Positions 47,981-61,594 of a DNA stretch of 64,000 nucleotides are shown piece after piece. Below the pieces are notes generated by a model. It was not told the DNA's origin. It did not search any database and worked only from the letters and a program-made list of their open reading frames with translations. Every line of letters begins with the position of its first letter. Within the stretch, counting starts at the first letter, position 1. Origin of the DNA: Qipengyuania xiamenensis (GTDB lineage Bacteria > Pseudomonadota > Alphaproteobacteria > Sphingomonadales > Sphingomonadaceae); assembly GCF_019711495.1 (NCBI RefSeq), contig NZ_JAIGNM010000001.1, positions 248,001 through 312,000 on the forward strand, in the 5' to 3' direction. A program made the translations under genes and the position numbers.

Positions 47981-48053
47981 CCTGAAAGCAGACCGGCAGC
48001 TTTGCTCCGTTAATGAGCACCGCCAATGTCCGATTATGGGTGGTTAGCGGACG
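47981..48053. repeat. Dispersed intergenic repeat, copy A
   Basis: CCTGAAAGCAGACC (47981-47994) is identical to 59551-59564, and 48025-48053 (TCCGATTATGGGTGGTTAGCG) is a diverged copy of the TCGGGTCGTTAGC core found at four other places. It is non-coding and lies next to the 48044-48427 gene. Confidence 0.55.
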
Positions 48054-48427
48054 CTGTTGAATTCACGTGTTTTGTTATCGTCGCCAACAAAACTCACCCC
48101 ACACTTAGAGCAACTGGTCCGTAGAGGCAGGTGCACACCTGAATATTCCTTGCCCCAGAACCTAGTCCAGAAACGGTCATCGTTCCTCAAGCGCTCATTG
48201 GCTTGATGATCAGCGAATGCAGGGAAGCCACAGGCGTAGCATTTGATGTTGAACAGCAGAACCGCTGGAACGAAAAAGGCTAGACCAACTGCTGATGGCC
48301 AGAAGGCATCGAGGGGCCAGCCTATCAGGCAACTCAAGAAGAAAAGTGCTGAGGCAACAGCAGCCGGCCATTGCCAACGACGGGCGATCTGAAACCTCTT
48401 GGGTATTGAAGGCTTTTGCTCTGACAT
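48044..48427 (-). CDS. Small membrane protein with zinc-ribbon-like tail
   Basis: A 127-residue protein with two TM segments (about residues 22-38 and 45-62) followed by two Cys pairs, CYACG and CSKCG, about 50 residues apart, which could form a zinc ribbon. I do not recognise a family. It is the only minus-strand gene of the accessory stretch. Start at 48427 is the first Met before the basic N-terminus. Confidence 0.6.
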   Translation of the reverse strand: MSEQKPSIPKRFQIARRWQWPAAVASALFFLSCLIGWPLDAFWPSAVGLAFFVPAVLLFNIKCYACGFPAFADHQANERLRNDDRFWTRFWGKEYSGVHLPLRTSCSKCGVSFVGDDNKTREFNSVR

Positions 48428-48454
48428 GCGGCACAATTTAGCAAGATCGCCCAA

Positions 48455-48545
48455 GGTCCGCTATCGGGTCGTTAGCGGCCCGTCCGCTGCTGGCACATCG
48501 CCAGCTCGGCGAAGCGGTCAGGAAATGGGTGGTAAGCGGACAGTC
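48455..48545. repeat. Dispersed intergenic repeat, copy B
   Basis: Contains GGTCCGCTATCGGGTCGTTAG followed by CGGCCCGTCCGCTGCTGGCAC, and then a GGGTGGTAAGCGGAC element. It is related to copies at 48.0, 59.6, 62.4 and 63.8 kb. Confidence 0.55.
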
Positions 48546-48595
48546 ATAGCTCTTCTGTTCAATCAAAAAAGCGGACGATCTCGTTCCTGAACTTT

Positions 48596-48632
48596 GAAAC
48601 AACTGAAATGAAATACCGGTCGTTGCGGCATC
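48596..48632 (+). promoter_or_regulatory. GAAAC-repeat promoter, site 1 (osmC-like gene)
   Basis: GAAAC (48596-48600), AACT, GAAAT (48605-48609), then 15 bases to GCGGCATC (48625-48632). Sites 2-4 have the same layout without gaps. The second repeat overlaps a TTGAAA-like -35, and CGGCAT is at -10 distance (17-base spacer). The start codon is 85 bases on. Confidence 0.65.
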
Positions 48633-48716
48633 CAACAGAAACATGGGCGGCCCATTCAATCACTCGTTCTCCCGTCACGGTGGCGGGCAGTGCAGAGATT
48701 GAATGGAGACCCACAA

Positions 48717-49295
48717 ATGACCAATACCATGACCAAGCCCGCTCGCGTCGCCATGAACGGCGTCGACGTTCCGACCTTCATCGCCACGCTCGGTGCGGTC
48801 GACAACCAGCGCGAAATCGCGCGCTTCACCTTCCGCGCCAATGGCCAGTGGCTTGCCGGTACGCATAGCCGCGTCGAGTTCAAGGACTTCTACGGCGCTT
48901 GTTCCGAGAACGAGCACAACCAGACCTACGCAATTGAAGGCGACCACCCCGAAGTGCTGTGCGGGACCGACAATGCCCCGACCCCGGCTGAATTGCTGCT
49001 CGGCGCACTTTCGGCCTGCCTGACTGCCGGCATCGGCAACATCGCCTCGATGCGTCAGGTCGAACTCGAATCGGTCGCATGCACGGTCGAGGGCGATATC
49101 GATCTCAACGGCATCCTCGGTCTCGACCCGCAGGTTCGCAACGGCTTCCAGGGCGTTCGCGTTACTGTCGCCATCAAGGGCAATGCCGATGACGAAACGC
49201 TTGAAAAGATCGTGCGCCAGTCGGTTGCCCGTTCGGCCGTGTTCGACGTGATGACCAACGGCGTCCCCGTCTCGGTTGCCGCCAAGGTCGGCTGA
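48717..49295 (+). CDS. OsmC-family protein
   Basis: A 192-residue OsmC/Ohr-fold protein; family members reduce organic peroxides or bind thiol substrates with two Cys. The core helix here is ELLLGALSACLTAGIGNIAS (Cys near residue 109), and an upstream Cys lies in EVLCGTDNAPTP (near residue 82). Start at 48717 follows GGAG with an eight-base gap. It is monocistronic, with its own GAAAC promoter and a terminator. Shared promoter elements link it to the two operons downstream. Confidence 0.88.
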   Translation: MTNTMTKPARVAMNGVDVPTFIATLGAVDNQREIARFTFRANGQWLAGTHSRVEFKDFYGACSENEHNQTYAIEGDHPEVLCGTDNAPTPAELLLGALSACLTAGIGNIASMRQVELESVACTVEGDIDLNGILGLDPQVRNGFQGVRVTVAIKGNADDETLEKIVRQSVARSAVFDVMTNGVPVSVAAKVG

Positions 49296-49350
49296 CCCAA
49301 GCCCCCGAAAGTATGGCGGCGCTCTTCGCGACCCGAGTTGCCGCAACACT

Positions 49351-49387
49351 GGCCCGTCGGCCTTCAGGACCGGCGGGCCTTCCTTTT
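49351..49387 (+). terminator. Intrinsic terminator after OsmC gene
   Basis: GGCCCGTCGG (49351-49360) pairs with CCGGCGGGCC (49370-49379) with one G-T pair, followed by TTCCTTTT. It isolates the OsmC gene from the operon that starts about 120 bases further. Confidence 0.85.
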
Positions 49388-49412
49388 GCCACCAGAGCTC
49401 GCTGTCGCTGCT

Positions 49413-49449
49413 GAAACCTTTGAAACAAAAAACCGCATTTGGCGGCACA
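49413..49449 (+). promoter_or_regulatory. GAAAC-repeat promoter, site 2 (flavoprotein-globin operon)
   Basis: GAAAC (49413-49417), CTTT, GAAAC (49422-49426), then 15 bases to GCGGCACA (49442-49449). TTGAAA is the likely -35. The start codon of the six-gene operon is 56 bases on. Layout equals sites 1, 3 and 4. Confidence 0.65.
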
Positions 49450-49504
49450 AGAGCGATACGTTGGCAGGCGAAAAGGGACGGACCAATCCAACGGAGTTCG
49501 TCCC

Positions 49505-50755
49505 ATGACACAGTTCATCGACTGCCTGATTATCGGTGGAGGCCAGGCCGGTCTCGCGATGAGCCGCAGCCTGCTCGACGCAGGAATCGAAAACGTCGTG
49601 CTCGAACGTGGCAGCATTGCCAATCGCTGGAGCACGGCGCGCTGGCCTTCGCTGCGGCTGCTGACTCCAGGCTGGATGACCCGCCTGCCCGGCCAGCAGT
49701 TGGCAGGGCGCGAGGAAGGTTTCCTCGGTGCTGGCGACCTTGCCGCCCGGCTGCAGGACTATGCAGCGGGCCAGGGCCTTCCCGTTATCGAGAATATCGA
49801 CGTGCTCGCGCTCGAGAAGCTGGGCGACCGCTTTCGTGCCGTTACTTCGCGCGGCAGCTGGATCGCACGCAGCGTTGTCGTTGCGACCGGTGCCTGCGAC
49901 CGACCGCGTATTCCGTCTTGGGGCCGTGACCTTTCGCCAAGCCTCTACCAGATTGCCTCGACCCAATATCGCGGCGCCGAGCAGCTTCCCCAGGGCGGCG
50001 TTCTTGTCGTCGGGGCTTCGGCAACTGGCGTCCAGCTCGGGAGCGAGATTGCGGCGTCGGGCCGCAAGACCATCCTCGCGGCAGGCAGCCACGTGCGTTC
50101 GCCGCGCCGTTATCGCGGCCGTGACCTGTTCGACTGGCTTGATGCCAGCGGCTTTCTTGCTCAGCCGACCGCGACAGGCCGCTCGCCCGCCCAGCTCATG
50201 GCCCAGCCTTCGATGCAGCTGATCGGCAGCGACGATAATCGCGAAATCGATCTCTACAGCCTCGCGCGCCATGGTGTGATCATTGCCGGCCATGCCTCTG
50301 GCGCGTCAGGCAACGTCGTAGGCTTTGCCGATGATCTTGCGCGAAGCCTCGGCCTTGGCGAGCGCCGCCGCCAGCGGATGCTCAGCCAGATCGATGCCTT
50401 CATCGGCTCAGCAGGCATCGATGCTCCCGAGGACCCCGCCGCCCGCCAGAACACCGGCCTCCTCATGCCAATGAACGGCGCCATCGACCTTGCCGGACAC
50501 GGGATTTCCACCGTGCTGTGGGCGACCGGTTACCGGCGCGACTACTCCTGGATCCATTTCGATGCCTGCGATGCAGACGGCGAACTGAGGCAGGAGGGCG
50601 GCCTGTGCGACACGCCAGGCCTCTACGTGCTGGGCCTGCCCTTCATGCGCCACCGCGCATCCAGTTTCATCGACGGTGTCGGCCGCGACGCCGAAGCCCT
50701 CGCCCCCGTCATTGCCGCCCGGCTCGGAGCTTCCGACGCCCTGCAAGCAGCCTGA
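49505..50755 (+). CDS. FAD/NAD(P)-binding monooxygenase-like flavoprotein
   Basis: A 416-residue protein of the flavin-containing monooxygenase/CzcO-like family. FAD fingerprint IIGGGQAGLAMSRSL at the N-terminus, a second NADPH-binding glycine motif VVGASATGVQLGSE (about residue 165) and the late ATGYRRDYSW motif typical of the family. The substrate is unknown. It is the first gene of a six-gene operon and directly follows promoter site 2. The next gene starts 11 bases after it. Confidence 0.88.
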   Translation: MTQFIDCLIIGGGQAGLAMSRSLLDAGIENVVLERGSIANRWSTARWPSLRLLTPGWMTRLPGQQLAGREEGFLGAGDLAARLQDYAAGQGLPVIENIDVLALEKLGDRFRAVTSRGSWIARSVVVATGACDRPRIPSWGRDLSPSLYQIASTQYRGAEQLPQGGVLVVGASATGVQLGSEIAASGRKTILAAGSHVRSPRRYRGRDLFDWLDASGFLAQPTATGRSPAQLMAQPSMQLIGSDDNREIDLYSLARHGVIIAGHASGASGNVVGFADDLARSLGLGERRRQRMLSQIDAFIGSAGIDAPEDPAARQNTGLLMPMNGAIDLAGHGISTVLWATGYRRDYSWIHFDACDADGELRQEGGLCDTPGLYVLGLPFMRHRASSFIDGVGRDAEALAPVIAARLGASDALQAA

Positions 50756-50766
50756 GGAGAATAAAC

Positions 50767-51930
50767 GTGACCGACAATATCCGTCCCACACATCTTTACG
50801 ATGCCGTCGTTGTTGGAGCACGCTGCGCAGGCGCGGCCACTGCGATGCTGATGGCGCGCCACGGTGCGCGCGTGCTGATGATCGACCGAGCCGCAGAAGG
50901 AAGCGACACACTTTCGACCCATGCGCTGATGCGCGGGGCGGTCATGCAGCTTCACAATTGGGGAGTCCTGCACTCCATAACTGCGGAAAACACGCCGCCG
51001 ATCCATCGAACCTCCTTCATCTACGGCGATGCCGACCCGATCGATATCGACCTGTCCGACAGCTTCGGCACGCGCGCGCTTTATGCGCCGCGCCGAACGG
51101 TGCTCGACCGCCAGCTGGTCCGAGCGGCGCGCGAAGCCGGGGTCGACACGCTTTTCGGCGTTTCCATGACCGGCGTTGTCAAGGAAGGCGCAGGGCGCAT
51201 TAAAGGCGTCACTATCAAGGGCCGCCAGGGCACGCACACAATTGCCTGCGACCTGGTGATTGGCGCCGATGGTCGCAATTCCTCGCTCGCCAGGCATGTC
51301 GGCGCGGGACTGATCAAGCGCGGCACCAACATGTCTCAGGTTGCATTCGGCTATTTCATGGGCCTCGGCCAGCGCGGCTATCGCTGGTACTGGGGCGATG
51401 ATTGCGGCGGCGGCGTGATCCCCACCAATGACGGCGAGGCTTGCGTATTCCTGTCGGCTGCGCACGACGGGCCCTATGGCCTGCGCGGCATGCGCGGCGC
51501 CGATGCTTTTGCCTACGCGGCCAGTAAGATGATGCCGCAGATGGCGGATGAATTGCGGGGAGCGTGCCTTTCCGGCAAGATCCGCAGCTTTGGCGGCCAG
51601 CCGGGACACATGCGCGAGGCTTGCGGAAACGGTTGGGCGCTGGTTGGCGATGCAGGCTACTTCAAGGACCCGATTACTGCGCATGGTATCACCGATGCGC
51701 TGCGCGATGCGCAACTGCTGGCCGACAGCTGGGCGCGCGGCAGGCTCGACGATTATCCTGCCGTCCGCGATGCCTTGTCGCACGACATCTTTCGCTTATC
51801 CGACGAGATCGCCGGTTACAACATGGGCCTTGAGGGACTGGCTGCCCTGCACAAGTCGCTCAACACGGCAATGCAGGCGAACCAGCTCTGGATCGCCGAG
51901 AACCTATACGCCACTCGGGCGGCGGCTTGA
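50767..51930 (+). CDS. FAD-dependent oxidoreductase (PHBH/geranylgeranyl reductase-like)
   Basis: A 387-residue group A flavoprotein. FAD fingerprint VVVGARCAGAATAMLMARHG at the N-terminus, GADGRNS in the middle and GDAGYFKDPITAHGI near residue 295, the flavin-contact motif of the family. It starts at a GTG after GAGGAG. Family members hydroxylate, halogenate or reduce double bonds; which one cannot be told. It is second in the operon; the globin follows after a small hairpin (GCTCTG-TCAT-CAGAGC, 51937-51952). Confidence 0.87.
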   Translation: MTDNIRPTHLYDAVVVGARCAGAATAMLMARHGARVLMIDRAAEGSDTLSTHALMRGAVMQLHNWGVLHSITAENTPPIHRTSFIYGDADPIDIDLSDSFGTRALYAPRRTVLDRQLVRAAREAGVDTLFGVSMTGVVKEGAGRIKGVTIKGRQGTHTIACDLVIGADGRNSSLARHVGAGLIKRGTNMSQVAFGYFMGLGQRGYRWYWGDDCGGGVIPTNDGEACVFLSAAHDGPYGLRGMRGADAFAYAASKMMPQMADELRGACLSGKIRSFGGQPGHMREACGNGWALVGDAGYFKDPITAHGITDALRDAQLLADSWARGRLDDYPAVRDALSHDIFRLSDEIAGYNMGLEGLAALHKSLNTAMQANQLWIAENLYATRAAA

Positions 51931-51936
51931 TTTTGC

Positions 51937-51952
51937 TCTGTCATCAGAGCAG
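51937..51952 (+). promoter_or_regulatory. Intra-operon hairpin before the globin gene
   Basis: GCTCTG and CAGAGC form a 6-bp stem with a four-base loop in the only sizeable gap of the operon. No T run follows. It may tune expression of the globin and downstream signalling genes relative to the flavoproteins. Confidence 0.4.
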
Positions 51953-51980
51953 CATGCCGCTTTGCGGTGGGGAGGCTATC

Positions 51981-52346
51981 ATGGCTCAACAGCAATCGAT
52001 GTTCGACAAATACGGTGGTTTTTCGGTGGTCAGCAAGATCGTGCTGGACCTCTACGAACGACTGCTGGACGACGATGATCTCGGCCCATTCTTCGACGAT
52101 GTCGAATTTGCGCGGATCGTCGATCACCAGACAAAGTTCGTGTCTTCGGTCATGGGCGGTCCGGCTTCCTACACCGACGTGCAGATCCAGAAGCTCCACA
52201 GCCACCTCCCGATTTCCGATGCGCATTTCGACAAGCTCGCCGTCATGCTGACCCAGGTTCTCCAGGACCATGGGGTCGAGGATGAGGACGCACAGGAAGT
52301 CGTCGGCGCCTTTGCGCAGCGTCGCGGCCTCGTGGTGAACGACTGA
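51981..52346 (+). CDS. glbN: Group 1 truncated hemoglobin
   Basis: A 121-residue truncated globin that should bind haem and O2 or NO in the cytoplasm. The N-terminal Tyr-Gly-Gly turn (DKYGGFSVVSKIV), the B/E region with FFDDVEFARIVDHQTKF, GGPASYT and the proximal His in KLHSHLPIS (about residue 75) follow the trHbN pattern. Start at 51981 follows GGGGAGG. A cyclase gene begins two bases after its stop, so the globin may feed a gas signal into the cyclase or scavenge NO. Confidence 0.9.
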   Translation: MAQQQSMFDKYGGFSVVSKIVLDLYERLLDDDDLGPFFDDVEFARIVDHQTKFVSSVMGGPASYTDVQIQKLHSHLPISDAHFDKLAVMLTQVLQDHGVEDEDAQEVVGAFAQRRGLVVND

Positions 52347-52348
52347 GC

Positions 52349-53395
52349 ATGTCGATCGAAGCCATCAACGAGCAGTTGCTCCGCGCCATCGGTGTGGGCG
52401 TTGCCCTTCTCGACACATCGGAGCTCAAGTTCCGCTTCTTCAACGACACCTTCAAGGAATGGTTTGCCGAGATCGAGACCGGGCAGCAACTGCGCGACGT
52501 CTTTCCTGATATCGATACTGCGGAGGTGATTAGGGCGCTTCAGGAAACCGGCCAGTTCACGAGCGAGGCAAGCTTTCGCATTCGCCGTCGCACGATGACG
52601 ATCGCGATGACGATCAATCCCGCGCTCGAGGGCAACCAGAAGGTCGCCGTTCTGGTGTGCCAGAACATCAGCCGGATCAAGGAACTGGAATCGATGATCG
52701 ATTCCTATTCGATGATGGTCGAACGCAACACGCGAGAGATCAAGCGCGAGAAGGAGCAGGTCGAAAAGCTGCTCCTCAACATGATGCCGCGCTCGGTCTA
52801 CGAGGAATACAAGACTTTCGGCGTGGTCACGCCGCGCACCTACGAGAACGTAGCGGTTCTGTGCCTCGATTTCTCCGGTTTTTCGGCCACGGTCGAGCAA
52901 CAGGACGCCGGCGTGATCGTCAGCGAACTGAATGATATCTACACCGCATTCGATCGTATCGGCGACCAGTTCGGCTGCGAGCGGATCAAGACCGTTGGCG
53001 ATCTCTACATCACCGTTGCCGGTATGCCCGATCCATCGGACCGGTCCATCCAGTCGGTGTCGGACGCAGCGGTTCGCTTCGTGCGCTATCTCGAAAATCG
53101 CAACAAGAGCCACCCAGTCGACTGGAATTGCCGGATCGGCCTGGCCGCCGGTTCGGTGATCGGATCGGTGGTGGGTGTGCAGAAGTACATCTACGACGTT
53201 TTCGGACCGGCCGTGGCGGATGCCATGCGCCTGCGCGAAGCGGCGGGAGCGATGGAGATCGTCGCGGCGGCTGATTTTGCCGAGCGGTTCGGCGAAGCGC
53301 ATGAGACCGAGGCTGCCGGTTCCGGCGCACTGGCTGACGGAACAGCGGTGGAACTCGTCCGGGTGCTGTCCGGGAACGGCAGCTTGAGCCATTGA
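52349..53395 (+). CDS. PAS-linked class III nucleotide cyclase
   Basis: A 348-residue soluble cyclase: PAS-like sensor (about residues 8-105), a coiled-coil linker (106-145) and a class III catalytic domain (about 160-310). Metal Asp174 (CLDFSGF) and Asp218 (KTVGDLY) are present. Lys214 and Asp283 (YDVFG) are the adenine-selecting pair, so cAMP is the expected product. The transition-state Asn of the canonical NTVNxASR motif is replaced by Ala290 while Arg294 remains, so activity may be low or altered. It sits between globin and histidine kinase genes in one operon. Confidence 0.88.
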   Translation: MSIEAINEQLLRAIGVGVALLDTSELKFRFFNDTFKEWFAEIETGQQLRDVFPDIDTAEVIRALQETGQFTSEASFRIRRRTMTIAMTINPALEGNQKVAVLVCQNISRIKELESMIDSYSMMVERNTREIKREKEQVEKLLLNMMPRSVYEEYKTFGVVTPRTYENVAVLCLDFSGFSATVEQQDAGVIVSELNDIYTAFDRIGDQFGCERIKTVGDLYITVAGMPDPSDRSIQSVSDAAVRFVRYLENRNKSHPVDWNCRIGLAAGSVIGSVVGVQKYIYDVFGPAVADAMRLREAAGAMEIVAAADFAERFGEAHETEAAGSGALADGTAVELVRVLSGNGSLSH

Positions 53396-53396
53396 G

Positions 53397-55295
53397 GTGA
53401 GCACTCCAGCCACCTCTAAACCCGCCATCGGGGAGCAGGGACAGTCGCCGGTTTTCCGCGAATTGCTCGATCATTTCTGGCTGGGGGTCGCGCTGTTCGA
53501 TGACGAAGCGCGGTTGTTCTACAGCAATCACGCTATGGCGCAGATCAATCCGGCGCTCGAAGATCTCTTCGCGCCCGGCCTCGAATGGGATCAGCTGCTG
53601 ATCGAGTGGGTTGCGCGCGGTGTTATCGATAGGACGGTGCAGGAGCGCTTACGCCGGCTCGAGAGTGGCCTGACAGCCGGCAATATGGAGAGCGAAAAAG
53701 CGGTCGTCGAGATGCGCGGCATGGGCCTCCACGAATTGGTGCTGGTCGCAACCTCGAACGGCGGGTTCGCACTGTCGCAGCGCGACGTGACGCGCCGAGA
53801 AATGGCGAGCGAGCACGATCAGGAAGCCGATGCGATCCTGCGGCAAGTGATGGAGGCGTGTCCTGCAAATCTTGTTATGTCGCGAATGGATGACGGTCAG
53901 ATCATCTACCGCTCGCCCGCGGCACGCGAAGTCCTCGGCCCAGGCAAGAAAGTTGCCGAACATTTCGTCAAGCGCTCGGACCTAGCTGATTTCGTTACCG
54001 AAATCCTGCCGCAGGGACGTGTCGACGACGTCTCGGTGCAGCTCAAGAATACCGATGGTGAGACTTTTCCCGCGCTCGTGTCGTCGCGACTGATCGAATA
54101 CCGCGGCGAGGATGTCGCTGTGTCATCGCTGGTGGACATCACCAAGGAGATCGAGATGCGCACGATGCTCGCCGCCCAGCGCGAGCGCATTTTCGAGACC
54201 GAGAAACTTTCAGCGCTCGGGGAGCTGCTGGCGGGTGTCGCGCACGAACTCAACAACCCGCTTTCGGTTGTCGTCGGGCACGCGCTGATGCTGCGCGAAG
54301 AAACGCAGGACACCGAAATTCTGCGGCGGGTCGAGCAGATCGAGAACGCCGCGGAACGCTGCGCCAAGATCGTCAAAAGCTTTCTCGCCATGGCGCGCGA
54401 ACAGCAGGTTTCAAAGGAAACGCTGGGTCTCGCCGAACTGGTAGAGGACGCGGTTCGCAGCCTGCGCGAAGGTGATATGGAATTCACCGCCGAGGTTAAT
54501 TGCGATCTGAAGAAGGATCTGCCGCCGCTTTCCGGCGATCCCGCCCAGCTCGAACAGGTGGTGACCAACCTGCTCGTCAATGCGCAGCAGGCCATCGCCA
54601 AATCGGGCGAAGGCGGCAAGATCGAGATTACAGCGCGCCCTGACCGCAGCCGCAACCTCATGGTAATCGACTTCTGCGATGATGGACCGGGCATTCCCGC
54701 CCATGTCGGCAAGCGCGTGTTCGAGCCGCTCTTCACCACCAAGGAAGTGGGCCAGGGGACGGGCATCGGTCTTGCCTTCTGCCACCGCGTGCTGACCGCG
54801 CATGGCGGGTCGATCGAATTGATGCCTTCTGAAGGTGGCGCCCATTTCCGCATCCACCTGCCGCTCGGCGAGGATGCGCACATGGAGCAGGCTACTCCCG
54901 CCCTGCAGCAAGCGGGGGAACCCTCGGGCAAGGTGCTAGTGATCGACGATGAACACGACGTCGCTGCATTGATCGCGGAAATCCTGCGGCGCGACAGCTA
55001 CGAGGTCGACATGGTCCATTCGAGCGAGGACGGGCTCGAAGCCTGCGCTGCGACCGAATACGACGCGATTCTCGTCGACATCAAAATGCCCGGCATCGGC
55101 GGGCAGGGTTTCCTCGAGCGGATCAGGGGTGAACGTCCCGAACTGGTCGAACGGATCGCTTTCGTCACGGGCAGCACGATGAGCCCCGAAACACGCGGCT
55201 TCCTCGATAATTGTGGCTGCCGTTTTCTCGAAAAGCCGGTCGCACCAAAGGACATCCGCGCGCTTGCCGCAAGGATCGTCGGACGGAGTAGCTGA
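53397..55295 (+). CDS. Hybrid sensor histidine kinase with receiver domain
   Basis: A 632-residue soluble hybrid kinase with no TM helix. Order: PAS-like regions (about 20-140 and 145-260), dimerisation domain with phospho-acceptor His283 (VAHELNNPLS), HATPase (NLLVNAQQAI; DDGPGIP; GTGIGLAFC) and a C-terminal receiver with Asp561 (LVDIKMPG). Start is the GTG at 53397, one base after the cyclase stop. Cytoplasmic PAS domains plus a globin and cyclase in the operon suggest redox or gas sensing. Confidence 0.9.
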   Translation: MSTPATSKPAIGEQGQSPVFRELLDHFWLGVALFDDEARLFYSNHAMAQINPALEDLFAPGLEWDQLLIEWVARGVIDRTVQERLRRLESGLTAGNMESEKAVVEMRGMGLHELVLVATSNGGFALSQRDVTRREMASEHDQEADAILRQVMEACPANLVMSRMDDGQIIYRSPAAREVLGPGKKVAEHFVKRSDLADFVTEILPQGRVDDVSVQLKNTDGETFPALVSSRLIEYRGEDVAVSSLVDITKEIEMRTMLAAQRERIFETEKLSALGELLAGVAHELNNPLSVVVGHALMLREETQDTEILRRVEQIENAAERCAKIVKSFLAMAREQQVSKETLGLAELVEDAVRSLREGDMEFTAEVNCDLKKDLPPLSGDPAQLEQVVTNLLVNAQQAIAKSGEGGKIEITARPDRSRNLMVIDFCDDGPGIPAHVGKRVFEPLFTTKEVGQGTGIGLAFCHRVLTAHGGSIELMPSEGGAHFRIHLPLGEDAHMEQATPALQQAGEPSGKVLVIDDEHDVAALIAEILRRDSYEVDMVHSSEDGLEACAATEYDAILVDIKMPGIGGQGFLERIRGERPELVERIAFVTGSTMSPETRGFLDNCGCRFLEKPVAPKDIRALAARIVGRSS

Positions 55296-55296
55296 C

Positions 55297-56007
55297 ATGG
55301 AAGATGCGACCCTCATCTGCATCTGCGACGATGAAGAGCCGCTGCGGGCGATGCTGGCAGAATATCTCGAAAAGAACGGCTTCCGCACCGTGCAGGCGCA
55401 TGATGCGGCGAATTTGCGGGAAACGCTGGGAAGCTGCGAACCGGCACTGCTTCTGCTCGACATCAACATGCCGGGCGAAGACGGGCTTTCGGTTCTGCGC
55501 AGTCTGCAGGGCGAGGAACGGGCTCCGCGTATCATCATGCTGACCGCAGCGGGAGAAACGGTCGACCGGATTGTCGGGTTGGAAATGGGCGCCGACGATT
55601 ACCTCGCCAAGCCCGTGGACCTGCGCGAACTGGTGGCGCGGGTGCGCGCCGTGCTGCGCCGTTCTTCCGCAAAGGAAGTTGAAGACCCGCAGGCAGCCGA
55701 AGGACGCCTGCCCTTCGGCAAGACCTGGCTCGATCTCGAAGCGGCCAAGCTATACGACAGGGATGGCAAGCCGATCCCGCTGACCGCGATGGAATTCAAC
55801 CTGCTCAAGCTCTTCGCGAAGAACCGCGGGCGGGTGCTCAATCGCGACCAGATACTCGAAGGCGCGCACGACCGCGAATGGGACCCCTTCGACCGCAGCA
55901 TCGACATCCGCATTTCGCGCATTCGCAAGAAGATCGAGCACAATCCGTCGAAGCCCGCGGTCATCCGCACGGTGCGCGGGCTGGGGTATATCTACGACCC
56001 CGAATAG
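55297..56007 (+). CDS. OmpR-family response regulator
   Basis: A 236-residue transcription regulator: receiver domain (phospho-acceptor Asp55 in LLDINMPG; Lys near 106 in YLAKPVD) and an OmpR/PhoB-type winged helix at about 140-236 (ISRIRKKIEHNPSK; VRGLGYIYDPE). It directly follows the hybrid kinase gene (one base after its stop) and ends the operon. As the only DNA-binding protein in the cluster, it is the best candidate to bind the GAAAC direct repeats. Confidence 0.93.
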   Translation: MEDATLICICDDEEPLRAMLAEYLEKNGFRTVQAHDAANLRETLGSCEPALLLLDINMPGEDGLSVLRSLQGEERAPRIIMLTAAGETVDRIVGLEMGADDYLAKPVDLRELVARVRAVLRRSSAKEVEDPQAAEGRLPFGKTWLDLEAAKLYDRDGKPIPLTAMEFNLLKLFAKNRGRVLNRDQILEGAHDREWDPFDRSIDIRISRIRKKIEHNPSKPAVIRTVRGLGYIYDPE

Positions 56008-56027
56008 GGGCGTGCGGCCACTGCAGC

Positions 56028-56064
56028 GATACAATTGAAACATTAAGGACGCCGGCGCGATATC
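56028..56064 (+). promoter_or_regulatory. GAAAC-repeat promoter, site 3 (cysteine synthase operon)
   Basis: GATAC (56028-56032), AATT, GAAAC (56037-56041), then 15 bases to GCGATATC (56057-56064). TTGAAA is the likely -35 and CGATAT the -10. Layout equals sites 1, 2 and 4. Confidence 0.65.
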
Positions 56065-56124
56065 CGGCTGAAACGCCGGCCGCGCATAGTCATGGGCATC
56101 GAAACACAGCCTAGGACCCGCGCC

Positions 56125-57648
56125 ATGAACGCTCCTTTCCCCCGTCCCCTATCCCGTCCCCAAGGAAGCGAAAGGCGCGGGTCCGTCCTCGAACTCGTCG
56201 GCGACACCCCCGTGGTGCTGGCCGAGAAGCTCTCCCCTCCAGGCCGCGAAGTGTGGCTCAAGCTCGAAAGCGCCAACCCCATGGGTTCGGTCAAGGACCG
56301 GCTCGCGCTGGGCCTGATCGAAGCCGCCGAGAAGGACGGATCGCTCAAGCCCGGACAGACAGTGGTCGAGGCGACCAGCGGCAACACCGGCATCGGTCTT
56401 GCACTGGTTTGCGCGCGCAAGGGCTATCCGCTGGTCATCGTCATGGCCGAAAGTTTCAGCGTCGAGCGCCGCAAGATCTTGCGTTACCTCGGCGCGAAGG
56501 TCGTGCTCACTCCGGCGTCGCTCAAGGGTACTGGCATGGTCGACAAGGCCCGCGAACTGGCCGAGGAGCACGGCTGGTTCCTGCCCTGCCAGTTCGAGAA
56601 CGAGAATAACGAGAAGGTCCACGAAGCGACCACCGGCATGGAAATCGTCCGAGCATTCGCCGACGCACCGCTCGACGCATTCGTCAGTGGTCTCGGCACC
56701 GGCGGTACTATCGCCGGCGTAGGGCGTGCGCTCAAGGCACATATGCCTTCGGCGCGAATTGTCGCCTGCGAACCCGACAATTCGCCGGTCCTCGCCTCGG
56801 GTGTTCCTCAGCAATATGCCGAGGACGGCTCGCCCGCTGCGAGCCACCCCCGCTTCCGCCCGCACCCGATGCAGGGCTGGGCCCCCGATTTCATTCCCGC
56901 GGTCACGGGGCGTGCCATTACCGACGGCGTGATCGATGAGATCGTCCCGGTCGCGGGCGCCGATGCGCTTGCCTGGTCGCGCCGCCTGGCCCGCGAGGAA
57001 GGCGTGTTCTGCGGCATCACTTCGGGCGCAACTTTCGCCGCCGCACGCCAGCTTGCAAGCGAGCTCCCTGAAGGGTCGCGCGTGCTGGCGATGATCCCCG
57101 ACACGGGCGAGCGTTACATGACCACGCCGCTGTTCGGTGACATCGAGGAGGACATGAACGAGGCGGAGATGGAAATCTCGCGATCGACCCCCGGTGCCCG
57201 CTTCGATGCCACGCCTGCTGCCGCTCCCGCAGCAGCTGCGCCAGAGGCCGATAAGCGCGCACTCGCCCATGTCGATGCCATTATCGCCGACGAAACGCAG
57301 TCGCTGGTGTTTTTCGCGCTCGAATGGTGCGAATTCTGCTGGTCTGCTCAAAAGCTGCTCGACCTGATGGAAGTCGATTATCGCATCGTCCATCTCGACG
57401 GAGCCGATTATGCCGATCCGGCATGGGGCGGCGACGTACGCGCCGCACTTGCCCAGCGCAGCGGCGGAGCACCGACGATCCCCCAAATCTTCGTCGGTAC
57501 GAAGCACCTCGGCGGGGCGACCGACCTGTTCGATGCTTTCAACGACGGTCGGCTCTCCGGCATTTTCGAAGACGCCGGTATCGCCCACAAGCAGCCCGGC
57601 GTCGAAAACGCCTATTCCCTCCTTCCGAAGTGGTTGCAGAAAAGATGA
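56125..57648 (+). CDS. Cysteine synthase-glutaredoxin fusion
   Basis: A fusion of about 507 residues. The N-terminal part (about 15-330) is an O-acetylserine sulfhydrylase-type PLP enzyme with the Schiff-base Lys in GSVKDRLAL and the TSGNTG substrate loop. After an Ala/Pro-rich linker (about 355-385) the C-terminal glutaredoxin domain has a CEFC active site and TIPQIF. The fused domain could deliver reduced sulfur or protect the product thiol. An ATG at 56092 is an alternative start; the one at 56125 has AGGA at good spacing. It overlaps the next gene by four bases. Confidence 0.9.
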   Translation: MNAPFPRPLSRPQGSERRGSVLELVGDTPVVLAEKLSPPGREVWLKLESANPMGSVKDRLALGLIEAAEKDGSLKPGQTVVEATSGNTGIGLALVCARKGYPLVIVMAESFSVERRKILRYLGAKVVLTPASLKGTGMVDKARELAEEHGWFLPCQFENENNEKVHEATTGMEIVRAFADAPLDAFVSGLGTGGTIAGVGRALKAHMPSARIVACEPDNSPVLASGVPQQYAEDGSPAASHPRFRPHPMQGWAPDFIPAVTGRAITDGVIDEIVPVAGADALAWSRRLAREEGVFCGITSGATFAAARQLASELPEGSRVLAMIPDTGERYMTTPLFGDIEEDMNEAEMEISRSTPGARFDATPAAAPAAAAPEADKRALAHVDAIIADETQSLVFFALEWCEFCWSAQKLLDLMEVDYRIVHLDGADYADPAWGGDVRAALAQRSGGAPTIPQIFVGTKHLGGATDLFDAFNDGRLSGIFEDAGIAHKQPGVENAYSLLPKWLQKR

Positions 57649-59054
57649 GTTCCTTGCCCGACAAGAAAATTGCTCAGCGCCTGCTCGAAAAGGCAGCGCA
57701 ACTGGCGACACGGGGTCGCTACAGCGACCAAGCGCTTGATCCCCACCAGGCTCCGCTCGCAGCACGGGACAGTTTCGACATCGCACTTCCTCGCAGGGGT
57801 CGCGACCCACTCGAAGTGATCGAATCGCTCGATAGTGCTGCGCGTCCCGGCCTCTCCGGCATGACCGATGCCGGCTTCATGAGCTGGGTTATCGGCGGCT
57901 CGCATCCTGCAGGCGTGGCCGCCGATTGGATGGCCGCGGCCTGGGGCCAGAATGCCTGCCTCTACGAAGCTTCGCCTGCGTCTGCCCAGGCCGAGGCGGC
58001 AAGCGCGAAATACCTCCTCGACGTGCTAGACCTGCCGCCCGAAAGTTCGGTCGGCTTCGCCACCGGTGCGACCATGGCAGCCTTCACTTCGCTCGCCGCT
58101 GCGCGCCTGTGCGTGCTCGAGCGCGCTGGCCATGATTTCGAGCGCAAGGGCCTTTACGGCTGTCCCGAAGTGGCGATCTACATTGCCGACGATGCCCATG
58201 TGACCAATTACTCTGCGCTGCGGTACCTCGGTTTCGGCAGCGACCAATTGCACCGGATCCCCTCGCTGGACGACGGAACCTATGATTGCGACGCGCTCGA
58301 GGCAGCCATGGCCGAAGACGATGCGCCCGCGCGGATCGTGCTGGCACAGGCGGGCCACATCATGTCGGGCGCCTTTGACGACTTCACGCGCCTCGCCGCG
58401 CTGTGCAAACGCCACGGCGCATGGTTGCATGTCGATGGTGCCTTCGGCCTATGGGTGCGTGCCAGCCGAAGGTTGCGGCGCATTGCCGAAGGCGTGGAGC
58501 TGGCCGATTCCTGGTCAGTCGACGGACACAAGTGGCTGCAAATTCCCTATGACTGCGGCTTCGCAATCGTGAAGCATGAGGAGTACCACCGCCGCGCCAT
58601 GTCGATGCAGGCGGGATACCTCCCCGAAGGCGAACCGCTGCGCAACAATTCGGACTATGTCCCAGAACTCTCGCGCCGTGCGCGCGGCTTCTCGGTCTGG
58701 GCGGTGATGCAGAGCCTCGGGCGCAAGGGCATCGAGGACATGATCGAAAGCCATTGCCACGCGGCGCACTTGCTCGCCCAGGCGCTTAGGCGGCTGGACG
58801 GCGTGGAGGTGATCAACCGTCAGTGCCTCAACCAGCTCGCTGTGGCGTTCCACAGCCCGCATTGCGACGGGGCTGAAGCGGTGGCGCAGGCGCTCAACTC
58901 CAGCGGGCGCTATTTCGTACGCACCGCTCAATGGCAGGGCCGCAAGCTGCTGCGCTTCTCGATCATCAACGGCGAAACTGGTCCCGACCACGTTGCACCG
59001 ATGGTCGATGAGATTGCCGCTGCATGGCAAGCGATCTCGCGCGCCGCCGCCTGA
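57645..59054 (+). CDS. PLP-dependent group II amino-acid decarboxylase
   Basis: A 469-residue decarboxylase of the glutamate/aromatic/diaminobutyrate type. The PLP Lys lies in SVDGHKWLQIPYD (about residue 294), preceded by HVDGAFG. It overlaps the cysteine synthase-glutaredoxin gene (ATGA), so the two are made together; a decarboxylated cysteine- or sulfur-derived product is possible but not shown. The family's substrate residue cannot be read with confidence. No terminator hairpin follows; GAAAC site 4 begins seven bases after the stop. Confidence 0.88.
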   Translation: MSSLPDKKIAQRLLEKAAQLATRGRYSDQALDPHQAPLAARDSFDIALPRRGRDPLEVIESLDSAARPGLSGMTDAGFMSWVIGGSHPAGVAADWMAAAWGQNACLYEASPASAQAEAASAKYLLDVLDLPPESSVGFATGATMAAFTSLAAARLCVLERAGHDFERKGLYGCPEVAIYIADDAHVTNYSALRYLGFGSDQLHRIPSLDDGTYDCDALEAAMAEDDAPARIVLAQAGHIMSGAFDDFTRLAALCKRHGAWLHVDGAFGLWVRASRRLRRIAEGVELADSWSVDGHKWLQIPYDCGFAIVKHEEYHRRAMSMQAGYLPEGEPLRNNSDYVPELSRRARGFSVWAVMQSLGRKGIEDMIESHCHAAHLLAQALRRLDGVEVINRQCLNQLAVAFHSPHCDGAEAVAQALNSSGRYFVRTAQWQGRKLLRFSIINGETGPDHVAPMVDEIAAAWQAISRAAA

Positions 59055-59060
59055 GAAACC

Positions 59061-59097
59061 GAAACAATCGAAACGAGAAAACCGGCCATGCGATATC
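59061..59097 (+). promoter_or_regulatory. GAAAC-repeat promoter, site 4 (small ORF)
   Basis: GAAAC (59061-59065), AATC, GAAAC (59070-59074), then 15 bases to GCGATATC (59090-59097). An extra GAAAC lies just upstream at 59055-59059. A short gene with a good ribosome-binding site begins 74 bases on. Layout equals sites 1-3. Confidence 0.65.
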
Positions 59098-59170
59098 AGG
59101 GTGATACACGGCCAAGCCATATTCTCCGTGTTGCCGACGAACCGGCGATGCCAAACATTGGAGAATGAAA

Positions 59171-59296
59171 ATGTACGTAAAGACCGAAAACCCGATTCAA
59201 CAGAAAATGAAGCTGGCTCTCGCCGCCACGATCTGCGCGATGACTACTATCAGCAGCGCCGTCGCCATGGTGGTGACACAGGCAAATGTGGCGTGA
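59171..59296 (+). CDS. Small putative secreted or membrane peptide
   Basis: A 41-residue peptide with a hydrophobic segment (KLALAATICAMTTISSAVAM, about residues 14-33) like a signal peptide or single TM. GGAG with a seven-base gap precedes the ATG and promoter site 4 lies upstream, so it looks expressed. It may be a true small protein of the regulon or the N-terminal remnant of a longer exported protein: codons in another frame after its stop (about 59290-59454) read like protein (GPDFCAQYGC). Confidence 0.5.
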   Translation: MYVKTENPIQQKMKLALAATICAMTTISSAVAMVVTQANVA

Positions 59297-59801
59297 TCGA
59301 TCCCTTCTATCGAACGATCACAGAACTTGAAGCGAAGGGCAATCAACTCGCAGGTCCAGACTTCTGCGCTCAGTATGGTTGCTCTTCGCCATTCCGCCAG
59401 TCCCATGTCGTTCTAGCATCTCATGGACTCAATCCGGGTCTCGCAGTTCCATAAGAATTGCATGCGATTTGTGCTTTTAAAGACCCGCCAGTGTTTAAAA
59501 CCGAAGAATCTCGATGCGTAAGCGGAGTGTCTGCTTTAGGCGCTTCGCAGCCTGAAAGCAGACCGTCCGCAATCGGGTCGTTAGCCGACAGACAGCTTTT
59601 CGACGCGAGGGGTCAATAGCGGACGGTTCGCTGTCGGCACCAAATTGGCCAGTCAGTTGACATCTTGGTCACCAACATCGGCTTTCAGGCTCGGTCGGAA
59701 CGACCTTGCATCGCCGAAGAACTTGATTAGTCCGACATATTCTTCTAACCGACCACGTCAGCCAATCCCGGCGTGTTTCTGAAAATGGAAAGGAGCAAAT
59801 C
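59297..59801. other. Intergenic stretch with repeat copy C
   Basis: 505 bases without a convincing gene. The first 160 bases may be the remnant of a protein in a shifted frame. It then holds repeat copy C and ends with a strong AAAGGAG site for the tiny ORF at 59802. Confidence 0.4.
59551..59641 (+). repeat. Dispersed intergenic repeat, copy C (left of RtcB module)
   Basis: Contains CCTGAAAGCAGACC, then CGTCCGCAATCGGGTCGTTA (continuing to 59591), then CAGCTTTTCGAC and CAATAGCGGAC. From 59564 to about 59631 it matches, in inverted orientation, 62327-62393, with 27 of 28 identical bases in the first part. Confidence 0.75.
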
Positions 59802-59903
59802 ATGCGAGCTGTGATCGTTCGTCTCACAACCGATTTCCCGATCCATAATATTCAGGAACATATTGCATGGGCAATTTCCTGTCGGGCGGACAAGCACGCC
59901 TGA
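59802..59903 (+). CDS. Tiny ORF ahead of the RtcB module
   Basis: A 33-residue peptide (MRAVIVRLTTDFPIH...) with an exceptionally good ribosome-binding site (AAAGGAG, six bases before the ATG). It stands about 96 bases before the first gene of the RtcB-PrfH operon and could be a leader peptide whose translation reports ribosome health, or a remnant. No homologue is recognised. Confidence 0.4.
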   Translation: MRAVIVRLTTDFPIHNIQEHIAWAISCRADKHA

Positions 59904-59999
59904 TCTTCATTCGCAGCGGATTGAACGTTGCGCATTTCACAAATCCAGGCCTTTTGCATGCGCAGTGCAAGGTGACCTCCATTGCTATGGAGGGCCGCC

Positions 60000-60488
60000 A
60001 TGCGTTCTGACATGTTCAAAGTCATCGTCGAGCGACCGCGCTGGGGCGCAAGCCATGCGGCGTCGCCAAAATTAAAGAGGACCAAAGATCGCACGCTGAA
60101 GCACATCGGGCACAAGCGCCACGCCTTCGAAAGCGCGCCCTACACAAAATCGCTCAATGAGAACCTTGCTCCATTGGTTCGCTTTCTGCGCAGCCGGAGG
60201 GGGAAACCGTGGGACAACGTTTTCAGCGAGATTTGTGAGCGCCTCGATACGGGGAGCACGGTCAAGATGCACGTTCGCGAGCACCTGGAGGATTTCGTTC
60301 TCACCCGGATCTCAATCGGACGGCACGGCGAGTGGATGTTCGAAGGGGAGGTTCTCGGCGCCCACGGCATTTGGTTCAGGCGACGCGAATTCTTCGTCGA
60401 TCCGGAGGATGGCATACTCAAGGATTATGCCTTGCTAGCCAAGCGATTGCCTGTGGCAAATGGCGAGATTGCAGGAGGGCGGGCATGA
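60000..60488 (+). CDS. Unknown basic protein of the RtcB-PrfH operon
   Basis: A 162-residue Arg/Lys-rich cytoplasmic protein. It opens with FKVIVERPRWGASHA, then has a conserved-looking SLNENLAPLVRFLRSRRGKPWDNVFSEI region and a His-containing segment (VKMHVREHLEDFVL). I know similar unnamed proteins but no function. Its stop overlaps the rtcB start by four bases, so it is made together with the RNA ligase and PrfH. The basic charge suits RNA or ribosome binding. GGAGG sits six bases before the ATG. Confidence 0.75.
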   Translation: MRSDMFKVIVERPRWGASHAASPKLKRTKDRTLKHIGHKRHAFESAPYTKSLNENLAPLVRFLRSRRGKPWDNVFSEICERLDTGSTVKMHVREHLEDFVLTRISIGRHGEWMFEGEVLGAHGIWFRRREFFVDPEDGILKDYALLAKRLPVANGEIAGGRA

Positions 60489-61594
60489 ACGAGGAAAGTT
60501 CGCTTAAGCTTGTCGCGCGCGATCCCGCTCGCTTCGATCCCTTGGCTCTTGATCAACTCGAAGCCACTTCCCGCCTCGAAGGCATGGGCCGTGTTGTCGG
60601 CTTGCCCGATCTCCACGCGGGCAACGGGATCGCCGTGGGCGCAGCTTTCTGGTCTCAGAAGCGCATCTGGCCGCATCTTGTCGGGAGCGATATCGGCTGT
60701 GGCATGGCATTATGGGAGACCAGCCTGGCTGTGCGAAAGTTCCGGGTCGGCAAGATCGAGCGCAAGCTGCACGGTCTTGATGCGCCATGGGATGGACCCG
60801 CAGCACATGCACTGGCCGACGCGGGATTGCCGCCTGAACTTGTCAGCCCAGCTCTCGGCACCATTGGTGGCGGAAACCACTTTGTTGAGTTCCAGGCCAT
60901 CGAGGAGGTCGTCGCGCCCGATCGATTTGCCGAGCTTGGCCTAAAGGATGATTGCGTTCTGATGATGGTTCACAGCGGTTCGCGTGGGCTGGGACACGCT
61001 ATCCTGCAAGAGCAAATGGCGAGGCATGGAACGGTCGGTCTCCATGATGGGACTCCGGACGCTGACGCCTATTTGCAGCGGCACAATCAGGCCGTGGCAT
61101 GGGCGATCGTGAACCGGAAAGTTATCGCTGGCCGGTTTCTTGATGCCCTCGGCATGTCTGGCAAATGCATGCTCGACATCGTGCATAATAGCGTCACACG
61201 GCATCGCGAAGGCTGGTTGCACCGAAAGGGGGCTGCACCAGCGGATTGCGGTCTAGTCGTGATACCAGGGTCACGGGGGGATTTCAGCTACCTGGTTGAG
61301 CCTGTGCCCGACCGTGCGGAAGATGCCTTATGCTCGCTTGCGCACGGCGCGGGCCGCAAATGGAGCCGTAAGGATGCCCATGCGCGCCTCTCTCGCCGAT
61401 ATCGCGTCGCTGACTTGCAACGCACGAAATTGTCCAGCCATGTGATTTGCGAGGACCGCCGCCTGATCTTTGAAGAAGCTCCGGAAGCCTACAAGGATAT
61501 TGCCAGTGTCATTGCCGATCTGGAGGCCACGGGCCTGATCCGGGTGATCGCCCGCCTTCGCCCTCTCCTCAGCTACAAAACGAGGGCGTCATGA
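60485..61594 (+). CDS. rtcB: RtcB-family RNA ligase (RtcB2-like)
   Basis: GTP- and Mn-dependent ligase joining 2',3'-cyclic phosphate or 3'-phosphate and 5'-OH RNA ends. 369 residues, short for the family (about 400-480). Metal and catalytic positions are present: Cys72 (SDIGCGM), His132 (GGGNHFVE), His163 (MVHSGSRG), His234 (IVHNSV) and the guanylylated His287 (LAHGAGRK). Both ends overlap neighbours (ATGA), so the three-gene operon is tightly coupled. Pairing with prfH points to repair of cleaved 16S rRNA rather than tRNA splicing. Confidence 0.93.
   Translation: MNEESSLKLVARDPARFDPLALDQLEATSRLEGMGRVVGLPDLHAGNGIAVGAAFWSQKRIWPHLVGSDIGCGMALWETSLAVRKFRVGKIERKLHGLDAPWDGPAAHALADAGLPPELVSPALGTIGGGNHFVEFQAIEEVVAPDRFAELGLKDDCVLMMVHSGSRGLGHAILQEQMARHGTVGLHDGTPDADAYLQRHNQAVAWAIVNRKVIAGRFLDALGMSGKCMLDIVHNSVTRHREGWLHRKGAAPADCGLVVIPGSRGDFSYLVEPVPDRAEDALCSLAHGAGRKWSRKDAHARLSRRYRVADLQRTKLSSHVICEDRRLIFEEAPEAYKDIASVIADLEATGLIRVIARLRPLLSYKTRAS

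Follow-up and report, generated by a model that had tools for sequence, protein, structure and literature searches.

Which protein reads a DNA element that precedes four transcription units of one gene cluster, and what do these units have in common? The question is raised by a stretch of 64,000 nucleotides from Qipengyuania xiamenensis (assembly GCF_019711495.1, contig NZ_JAIGNM010000001.1, positions 248,001 to 312,000; hereafter the window). A preliminary description of this DNA had pointed out four sites of 37 bases, at 48596, 49413, 56028 and 59061, in which two GAAAC-like words nine bases apart are followed, after 15 bases, by a box of the form GCGRYAYM, and all four were located at exactly these positions. 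Our analysis suggests with good confidence that they are operators read by a response regulator of the OmpR/PhoB family whose gene belongs to the cluster itself (55297-56007). The geometry of the sites, their conservation, their confinement to the cluster within their own genome and their co-occurrence with the regulator and its recognition helix were established computationally.

Architecture and rarity of the proposed operator

A cyclase search retrieved 74 related loci (designated by L numbers), mostly from Rhodobacterales, Rhizobiales and Sphingomonadales, many of which share several cluster genes in varying order. Exact GAAAC-N4-GAAAC repeats are recurrent across related loci, and an alignment of 123 of them, including six from the window and from the sister species Qipengyuania vesicularis (L009), revealed a longer element. 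The operator consists of four directly repeated half-sites, TGAAAC-N3-TGAAAC-N16-cGAcac-N5-TGAAAC, which start at offsets 0, 9, 31 and 42; the half-site at offset 31 is degenerate, a strong GAAAC stands at offset 42, and an.A.A.T block follows at 57-62. The gap-free alignment of the four window sites over 37 bases, as described before, is thus correct but too short: because all four carry a fourth half-site at offset 42 (GAAAC, GATAC, GAAAC and GATAC, in order), it runs to 47 bases. For scoring, a profile was built from loci L010-L082, to the exclusion of the window and L009; of the 117 exact repeats present there, 94 were retained. The operators and the -10 candidates behind them are as follows.

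48596..48642, forward strand: operator 1, half-sites at 48596, 48605, 48627 and 48638, before the OsmC-like gene, profile score 34.8
48653-48658, forward strand: -10 candidate of operator 1, CATTCA, poor
49413..49459, forward strand: operator 2, half-sites at 49413, 49422, 49444 and 49455, before the flavoprotein-globin-cyclase-kinase-regulator operon, profile score 35.5
49470-49475, forward strand: -10 candidate of operator 2, GAAAAG, poor
56028..56074, forward strand: operator 3, half-sites at 56028, 56037, 56059 and 56070, before the CysK-glutaredoxin/decarboxylase pair, profile score 37.7
56085-56090, forward strand: -10 candidate of operator 3, CATAGT, good
59061..59107, forward strand: operator 4, half-sites at 59061, 59070, 59092 and 59103, before the gene of a 41-residue peptide, profile score 39.5
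59118-59123, forward strand: -10 candidate of operator 4, CATATT, good

The distances of 28-90 bases to the start codons reported previously hold at their lower end only if 56092 is taken as the start of the CysK-like gene; an ATG start at 56125 is a better match to the predicted transcription start and to the relatives. The model places transcription starts near 48665, 49482, 56097 and 59130.

With up to three mismatches to the 37-base pattern, the window contains these four sites only, and 100 dinucleotide shuffles of it yielded 0.62 matches on average and three at most. A genome-wide search (2,796,236 bases; GAAAY allowed as second box, up to two mismatches) returned eight matches and a single one for the reversed-pattern control. 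Those with no more than one mismatch are the four sites alone, all within 10.5 kb, so that the occurrence at random frequency named in the preliminary description as a refutation was not observed. Around the other four matches (L005-L008), stretches of 3 kb gave no profile score above 0 on either strand. The profile, although derived from other genomes, assigns 34.8-39.5 to the four sites and 2.1 to the next best place in the window, and its maximum across 200 block-shuffled windows was 15.7. Given the shuffles, the genome-wide rarity and the profile margin over the rest of the window, a chance pattern was rejected; the four-site observation is real.

The anatomy of the operator was quantified on a non-redundant set of 126 sites. 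On average, 4.48, 4.90, 3.17 and 4.19 of the five GAAAC positions are matched at offsets 0, 9, 31 and 42, compared with 0.91-2.42 at the other offsets tested. The third half-site keeps register 31 in 103 of these sites, 30 in 18 and 32 in five. Independently of any profile, the most frequent same-strand distances between GAAAC words in the 50 loci with the regulator are 9, 33, 42, 32 and 41 bases (105, 93, 54, 47 and 23 pairs, respectively; median 4), whereas 16 loci without regulator or sites contain five or fewer pairs at any distance, albeit in 273 kb compared with 1,008 kb. The preliminary description gave 10-11 bp as the common half-site period of OmpR-type regulators and considered the nine-base period of these sites unusual. 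This period is real, but it describes only half of the operator: the better conserved upstream pair repeats every 9 bp, the downstream pair with the usual 11 bp. The upstream pair is probably the anchor of the operator.

Downstream, the GCGRYAYM box contains the third half-site and lies near the expected -35 position, and the fourth half-site ends 10 bp upstream of a sigma70-like -10 element (.A.A.T, offsets 57-62). The reduced pattern.A...T begins at offset 57 in 53 of the 126 sites; elsewhere between offsets 46 and 79 the count does not exceed 11. These features bear on the reading that an alternative sigma factor of the extracytoplasmic function (ECF) type recognizes the sites, with GAAAC as -35 element, GCGRYAYM as -10 element and the repeat as incidental. 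The spacing between GAAAC and GCGRYAYM does resemble that of ECF promoters, and of the sigma70-like -10 candidates in the window, two out of four are poor. Against this explanation stand the four spaced half-sites, the distinct -10-like block farther downstream and the fact that the sites go together with an OmpR-type regulator and its recognition helix (see below); among the ten cluster proteins scanned no sigma factor was found, the rest of the genome not having been searched for them. GCGRYAYM as a -10 element was rejected, since the box contains the third half-site and is followed by a further conserved half-site and the -10-like block. For the same reasons we could uphold neither the alternative sigma factor, raised earlier as the rival reading, nor transcription starts just after the box, because some 20 bases separate the end of the box from the conserved -10-like block. 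We therefore regard recognition by an ECF sigma factor as highly improbable.

Co-occurrence with the regulator and its recognition helix

If the cluster regulator reads the operator, both should be found together. Reversed sequences of the 74 loci gave three matches above 10, the highest being 16.5; a cut of 20 yielded 170 sites, none of them inside genes recognized by likeness to the cluster proteins of the window. Sites scoring at least 20 are present in all 50 loci with a regulator orthologue of more than 55% identity, loci which also trained the profile. The 24 loci without a regulator in the retrieved stretch comprise eight with sites and 16 with none of at least 20, the latter group lacking regulator and nearby sites by definition; two of these 16 hold weak places (13.1 and 13.7). 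A whole-genome search recovered an orthologue (62-74% identity) elsewhere in seven of the eight site-bearing genomes without a local regulator. Conservation in orthologous clusters, proposed earlier as a check, is also evident: on plasmid pLA3 of Novosphingobium pentaromativorans US6-1 (L165), a syntenic cluster carries four sites above 10 in the same four places (44.4, 34.7, 45.4 and 34.9), which precede the OsmC gene, the flavoprotein operon and the CysK-like gene, the fourth lying where the decarboxylase gene ends, upstream of a hypothetical protein.

Presence of a related regulator is not sufficient, however. Three genomes among the 16 site-free loci (those of L068, L071 and L075) encode a regulator of 55-58% identity elsewhere, whose neighborhood has no site of at least 20 (best 12.4), so that the simple prediction fails. 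The rule that more than 55% regulator identity suffices for the motif was rejected accordingly, as no such site occurs in L113-L115 (55-58%), L122, L123 and L144-L147 (L144 being a contig of 4.1 kb on which the kinase is preceded by little sequence). A reason for the site-less neighborhoods of the 55-58% cousins might be their recognition helix, which reads SIDLR in all three, whereas DRSIDIRISR is invariant in the 49 of 49 motif-locus regulators that cover it.

This relation was followed with a frozen profile in held-out loci (L009 and L113-L165, except L117-L120, which overlap training genomes). At E<=1e-60 the regulator occurs in 21 of 385 genomes sampled across the class, including the window's own. 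The class sample comprises 20 of 21 places scored outside this genome (G370, a partial match, was left out), and a sample of one order added 24 of 26 places, the other two being L121 and L123. Held-out loci with a SIDIR helix scored at least 20 in 21 of 29 cases and at least 15 in all 29, down to 47% regulator identity (L160 exceeds 20 partly through a place without a good fourth half-site). In contrast, none of nine SIDLR loci, the three cousins included, reached 20 (best 18.3) despite up to 61% identity, and neither did any of six loci with other helices. Fisher's test of helix against site score gave p = 1.5e-4 with relatedness ignored, five of the nine SIDLR loci belonging to one genus. 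Reversed controls of the held-out loci reached 12.5 in the class sample and 16.1 in the order sample; scores of 15-18 alone are therefore unconvincing. Irrespective of the profile, GAAAC is the top-ranking of all 1024 pentamers at offsets 0/9/42 in the ten held-out SIDIR loci that the class sample contributed (14.3 of 15). In five SIDLR loci and eight others it is average. A search for an alternative pentamer at these offsets in the five SIDLR loci found nothing that stood out.

In a maximum-likelihood tree of 70 regulators, from which L115 was left out (aligned stretch below 200 residues), seven SIDLR proteins form a clade (99/95) inside a clade of 36 rows (100/99), whose other members are all from motif loci except L114 (SIDLR, unplaced) and L116. 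Since the SIDLR clade is nested in a motif-bearing clade, and motif-bearing SIDIR regulators are found outside the latter as well, the motif probably was lost or changed in the SIDLR branch together with the helix.

Several observations weigh against the assignment of the sites to this regulator, or against details of it. Firstly, the stricter pattern TANNNT stands at offset 57 in only six of 126 sites, and the -10 candidates are good at operators 3 and 4 and poor at operators 1 and 2. Secondly, no regulator orthologue was recovered for the sites of L019 (best match 39%), this genome being a draft with the contig breaking off within the kinase, and the regulator neighborhood L116 has no site, the site of this genome lying elsewhere, in L026. 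Thirdly, SIDVR helices are mixed (one of three loci at 20 or above), and scores of only 15-20 were obtained for eight of the 29 held-out SIDIR loci, namely L129 and seven loci of a single genus that share one diverged site; the best site of L153 (15.7) is surpassed by its reversed control (16.1). Finally, SIDLR is mostly confined to one clade, and I204L may thus be a marker and not the cause.

Could a regulator encoded elsewhere bind the sites, with the cluster regulator merely traveling along with the genes? Co-occurrence is not binding, and the sites of L019 would fit this explanation. On the other hand, L073 has kept OsmC, both flavoproteins, globin and cyclase (39-49% identity) and has neither a regulator orthologue (best 38%) nor a site, and sites stand beside regulators of 47-66% identity, with many of the held-out loci lacking OsmC, flavoprotein and CysK genes. 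Moreover, absence of the motif coincides with the change of the recognition helix, and the regulator is the sole protein with a DNA-binding domain among the ten cluster proteins scanned. A distant regulator therefore appears very unlikely to us. The regulator at 55297, which had been suggested to control all four units, probably is their common regulator, as the motif follows the distribution of both this protein and its recognition helix.

A putative two-component circuit and its relation to known systems

The PAS-type kinase (53397-55295), whose gene lies directly upstream of the regulator gene, would be the partner that phosphorylates the regulator. Two regulator dimers might then occupy roughly one DNA face of each operator. 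In the PhoB-type arrangement, the bound activator recruits the sigma70 polymerase; similarly, the downstream dimer over the -35 region could recruit this polymerase and switch the units on. Because the kinase and regulator genes lie behind operator 2, the circuit would be autoregulated; a motif upstream of its own kinase system is found in the window, and 33 loci have a site before the kinase. The regulator could also read the sites and repress, or do both, in which case the relation to the -10 element would not reflect class-II activation. Operators over the -35 region can repress, and some relatives contain divergent overlapping pairs; the fixed distance of 10 bp between the fourth half-site and the -10 element is, however, the arrangement expected for activation as by PhoB, and we consider a repressing or dual role unlikely. 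The pairs in question are spaced about 12-22 bases apart (L012 8487-/8509+, L013 8516-/8528+ and L015 8475-/8497+).

As to the signal, one can only guess at a reactive or gaseous small molecule, a guess taken from the target set of OsmC, flavoproteins, globin, cyclase, CysK-glutaredoxin, decarboxylase and a small peptide. The redox/sulfur/gas responsiveness proposed earlier is likewise a guess, drawn from the names of the genes. Tentatively, and with considerable reservation, the whole could be pictured as a so far undescribed alphaproteobacterial two-component regulon with a rigid four-half-site operator (periods of 9 and 11 bp, pair centers 32 bp apart), whose specificity changed with I204L in a side branch, and in which globin-cyclase and thiol, flavin and pyridoxal phosphate (PLP) enzymes might form one circuit responsive to gases or reactive species.

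How does this operator compare with those of known regulators, as far as the consulted parts of the respective papers describe them? PhoB sites overlap the -35 region (PMC3348028), and the pho box shares with the operator described here the direct-repeat half-sites, the winged-helix response regulator and this overlap; it differs in having one basic pair instead of two, in its word, which here is GAAAC, and in lacking the 9-bp period of the upstream pair. CenR of Rhodobacter sphaeroides, likewise an alphaproteobacterial OmpR-family regulator, has the motif TGA-N8-TGA, which is one short pair upstream of genes for envelope and division (PMC9275681), and the downstream pair here also spaces GA words 11 bases apart. 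The four half-sites and the gene set differ from those of CenR, a comparison made at the level of motif and genes. A CenR-type regulator would be expected to be broadly conserved; the present one was found in the 21 of 385 class genomes mentioned above. In Sinorhizobium, CenR-linked promoters contain an inverted repeat (PMC9561847). KdpE has a half-site period of 11 and, as suggested here, needs recognition-helix residues for binding, but its operator is one AT-rich pair compared with two GAAAC pairs (PMC3264566). The ChvI motifs, which also belong to an alphaproteobacterial two-component regulator, are TTGC-N3-GCAA in Caulobacter and, as cited for Sinorhizobium, GCC-N8-GCC (PMC9731502); the words differ, and the Caulobacter motif is inverted and not direct.

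In the open-access literature, to which the search was confined (subscription papers being outside its scope), no description of the repeat or the gene set was found among the papers listed, and a text search there with four repeat forms of 14-15 bases gave a single, unrelated match (on worm neurons). As judged from sequence comparison, this probably is a new regulon with a new operator variant of the OmpR/PhoB kind. It would bring enzymes with no assigned joint role under one testable regulon, represented in Sphingomonadales, Rhodobacterales and Rhizobiales and with its likely regulator named. The SIDIR and SIDLR helices provide a natural experiment on DNA choice by OmpR-type regulators, and the operator, recognizable from sequence because it is long and rigid, can be used for mapping the regulon in other genomes.

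Genes of the cluster and its relatives

The cluster comprises the following genes.

48717..49295, forward strand: OsmC-like protein (Pfam OsmC, 68.6 bits)
49505..50755, forward strand: FAD/NAD(P) flavoprotein, monooxygenase-like (Pyr_redox_3; related to the MSMEG_0569 family, far below its cut-off)
50764..51930, forward strand: second flavoprotein, of geranylgeranyl-reductase/FAD_binding_3 type by family matches
51981..52346, forward strand: truncated (bacterial-type) globin (Bac_globin)
52349..53395, forward strand: adenylate/guanylate cyclase with an N-terminal region (Guanylate_cyc, 101.6 bits; HNOBA below cut-off)
53397..55295, forward strand: PAS-containing hybrid histidine kinase with C-terminal receiver (PAS, HisKA, HATPase_c, Response_reg)
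55297..56007, forward strand: OmpR/PhoB-family response regulator, proposed reader of the operator, recognition helix FDRSIDIRISRI (Response_reg, 92.7 bits; Trans_reg_C, 83 bits)
56125..57648, forward strand: cysteine-synthase-like enzyme fused to a glutaredoxin domain (PALP and Glutaredoxin)
57645..59054, forward strand: PLP-dependent decarboxylase (Pyridoxal_deC)
59171..59296, forward strand: peptide of 41 residues, with a hydrophobic stretch that looks signal-like by eye (13 synonymous and four non-synonymous codon changes relative to L009)

The truncated globin gene directly precedes the class III cyclase gene (51981-53395), as is also the case in L067, L068, L070-L072, L075 and L126, and the gene pair is present in loci without the remaining cluster as well. 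As the cyclase has a sub-threshold HNOBA match, globin and cyclase may form a two-protein gas-sensing cyclase. The gene of the CysK-like/glutaredoxin fusion overlaps that of the PLP decarboxylase by four bases (56125-59054). A second small open reading frame (59293-59454), which overlaps the stop codon of the peptide gene, was rejected, since three synonymous versus 14 non-synonymous changes relative to L009 in 40 codons leave its coding capacity unsupported. No Rfam match was obtained in 48000-60600.

Among 249 genomes of the window's own family, only this genome and one relative (52% identity) contain the regulator at E<=1e-60, and the cluster is therefore patchily kept or acquired. Besides Q. 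vesicularis, it is present in Croceicoccus bisphenolivorans (L011), Novosphingobium mathurense (L010) and N. pentaromativorans (L165). Across the related loci, the longest frames soon after sites most often encode the kinase, in 33 loci, followed by OsmC in 22, an alpha/beta hydrolase in 19, the truncated globin in 15, the flavoprotein in 14 and another globin, from the classical family, in 11. A YgjV-like membrane protein comes next with 7 loci and the CysK-glutaredoxin fusion with 6; singletons include spurious frames.

Some sites before the YgjV-like gene are abutted by a second conserved box (about AACAGACCAAACGGTATG; L017 3966, L055 13292, L056 13893, L057 13297 and L062 13305), which looks like the operator of another regulator. 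Sites at L048 2661-, L049 2668- and L066 2664- precede a short protein whose DUF1127-like match narrowly misses the family cut-off (23.1 versus 23.3 bits). A genome labeled Oceanobacillus (Bacillota; L064) contains sites and an alphaproteobacterial-type regulator (62% identity), and this record is probably mislabeled. On pLA3, the cluster adjoins an arsenic-resistance set consisting of arsB, arsC, arsI/cadI and arsR (L165 1-2227).

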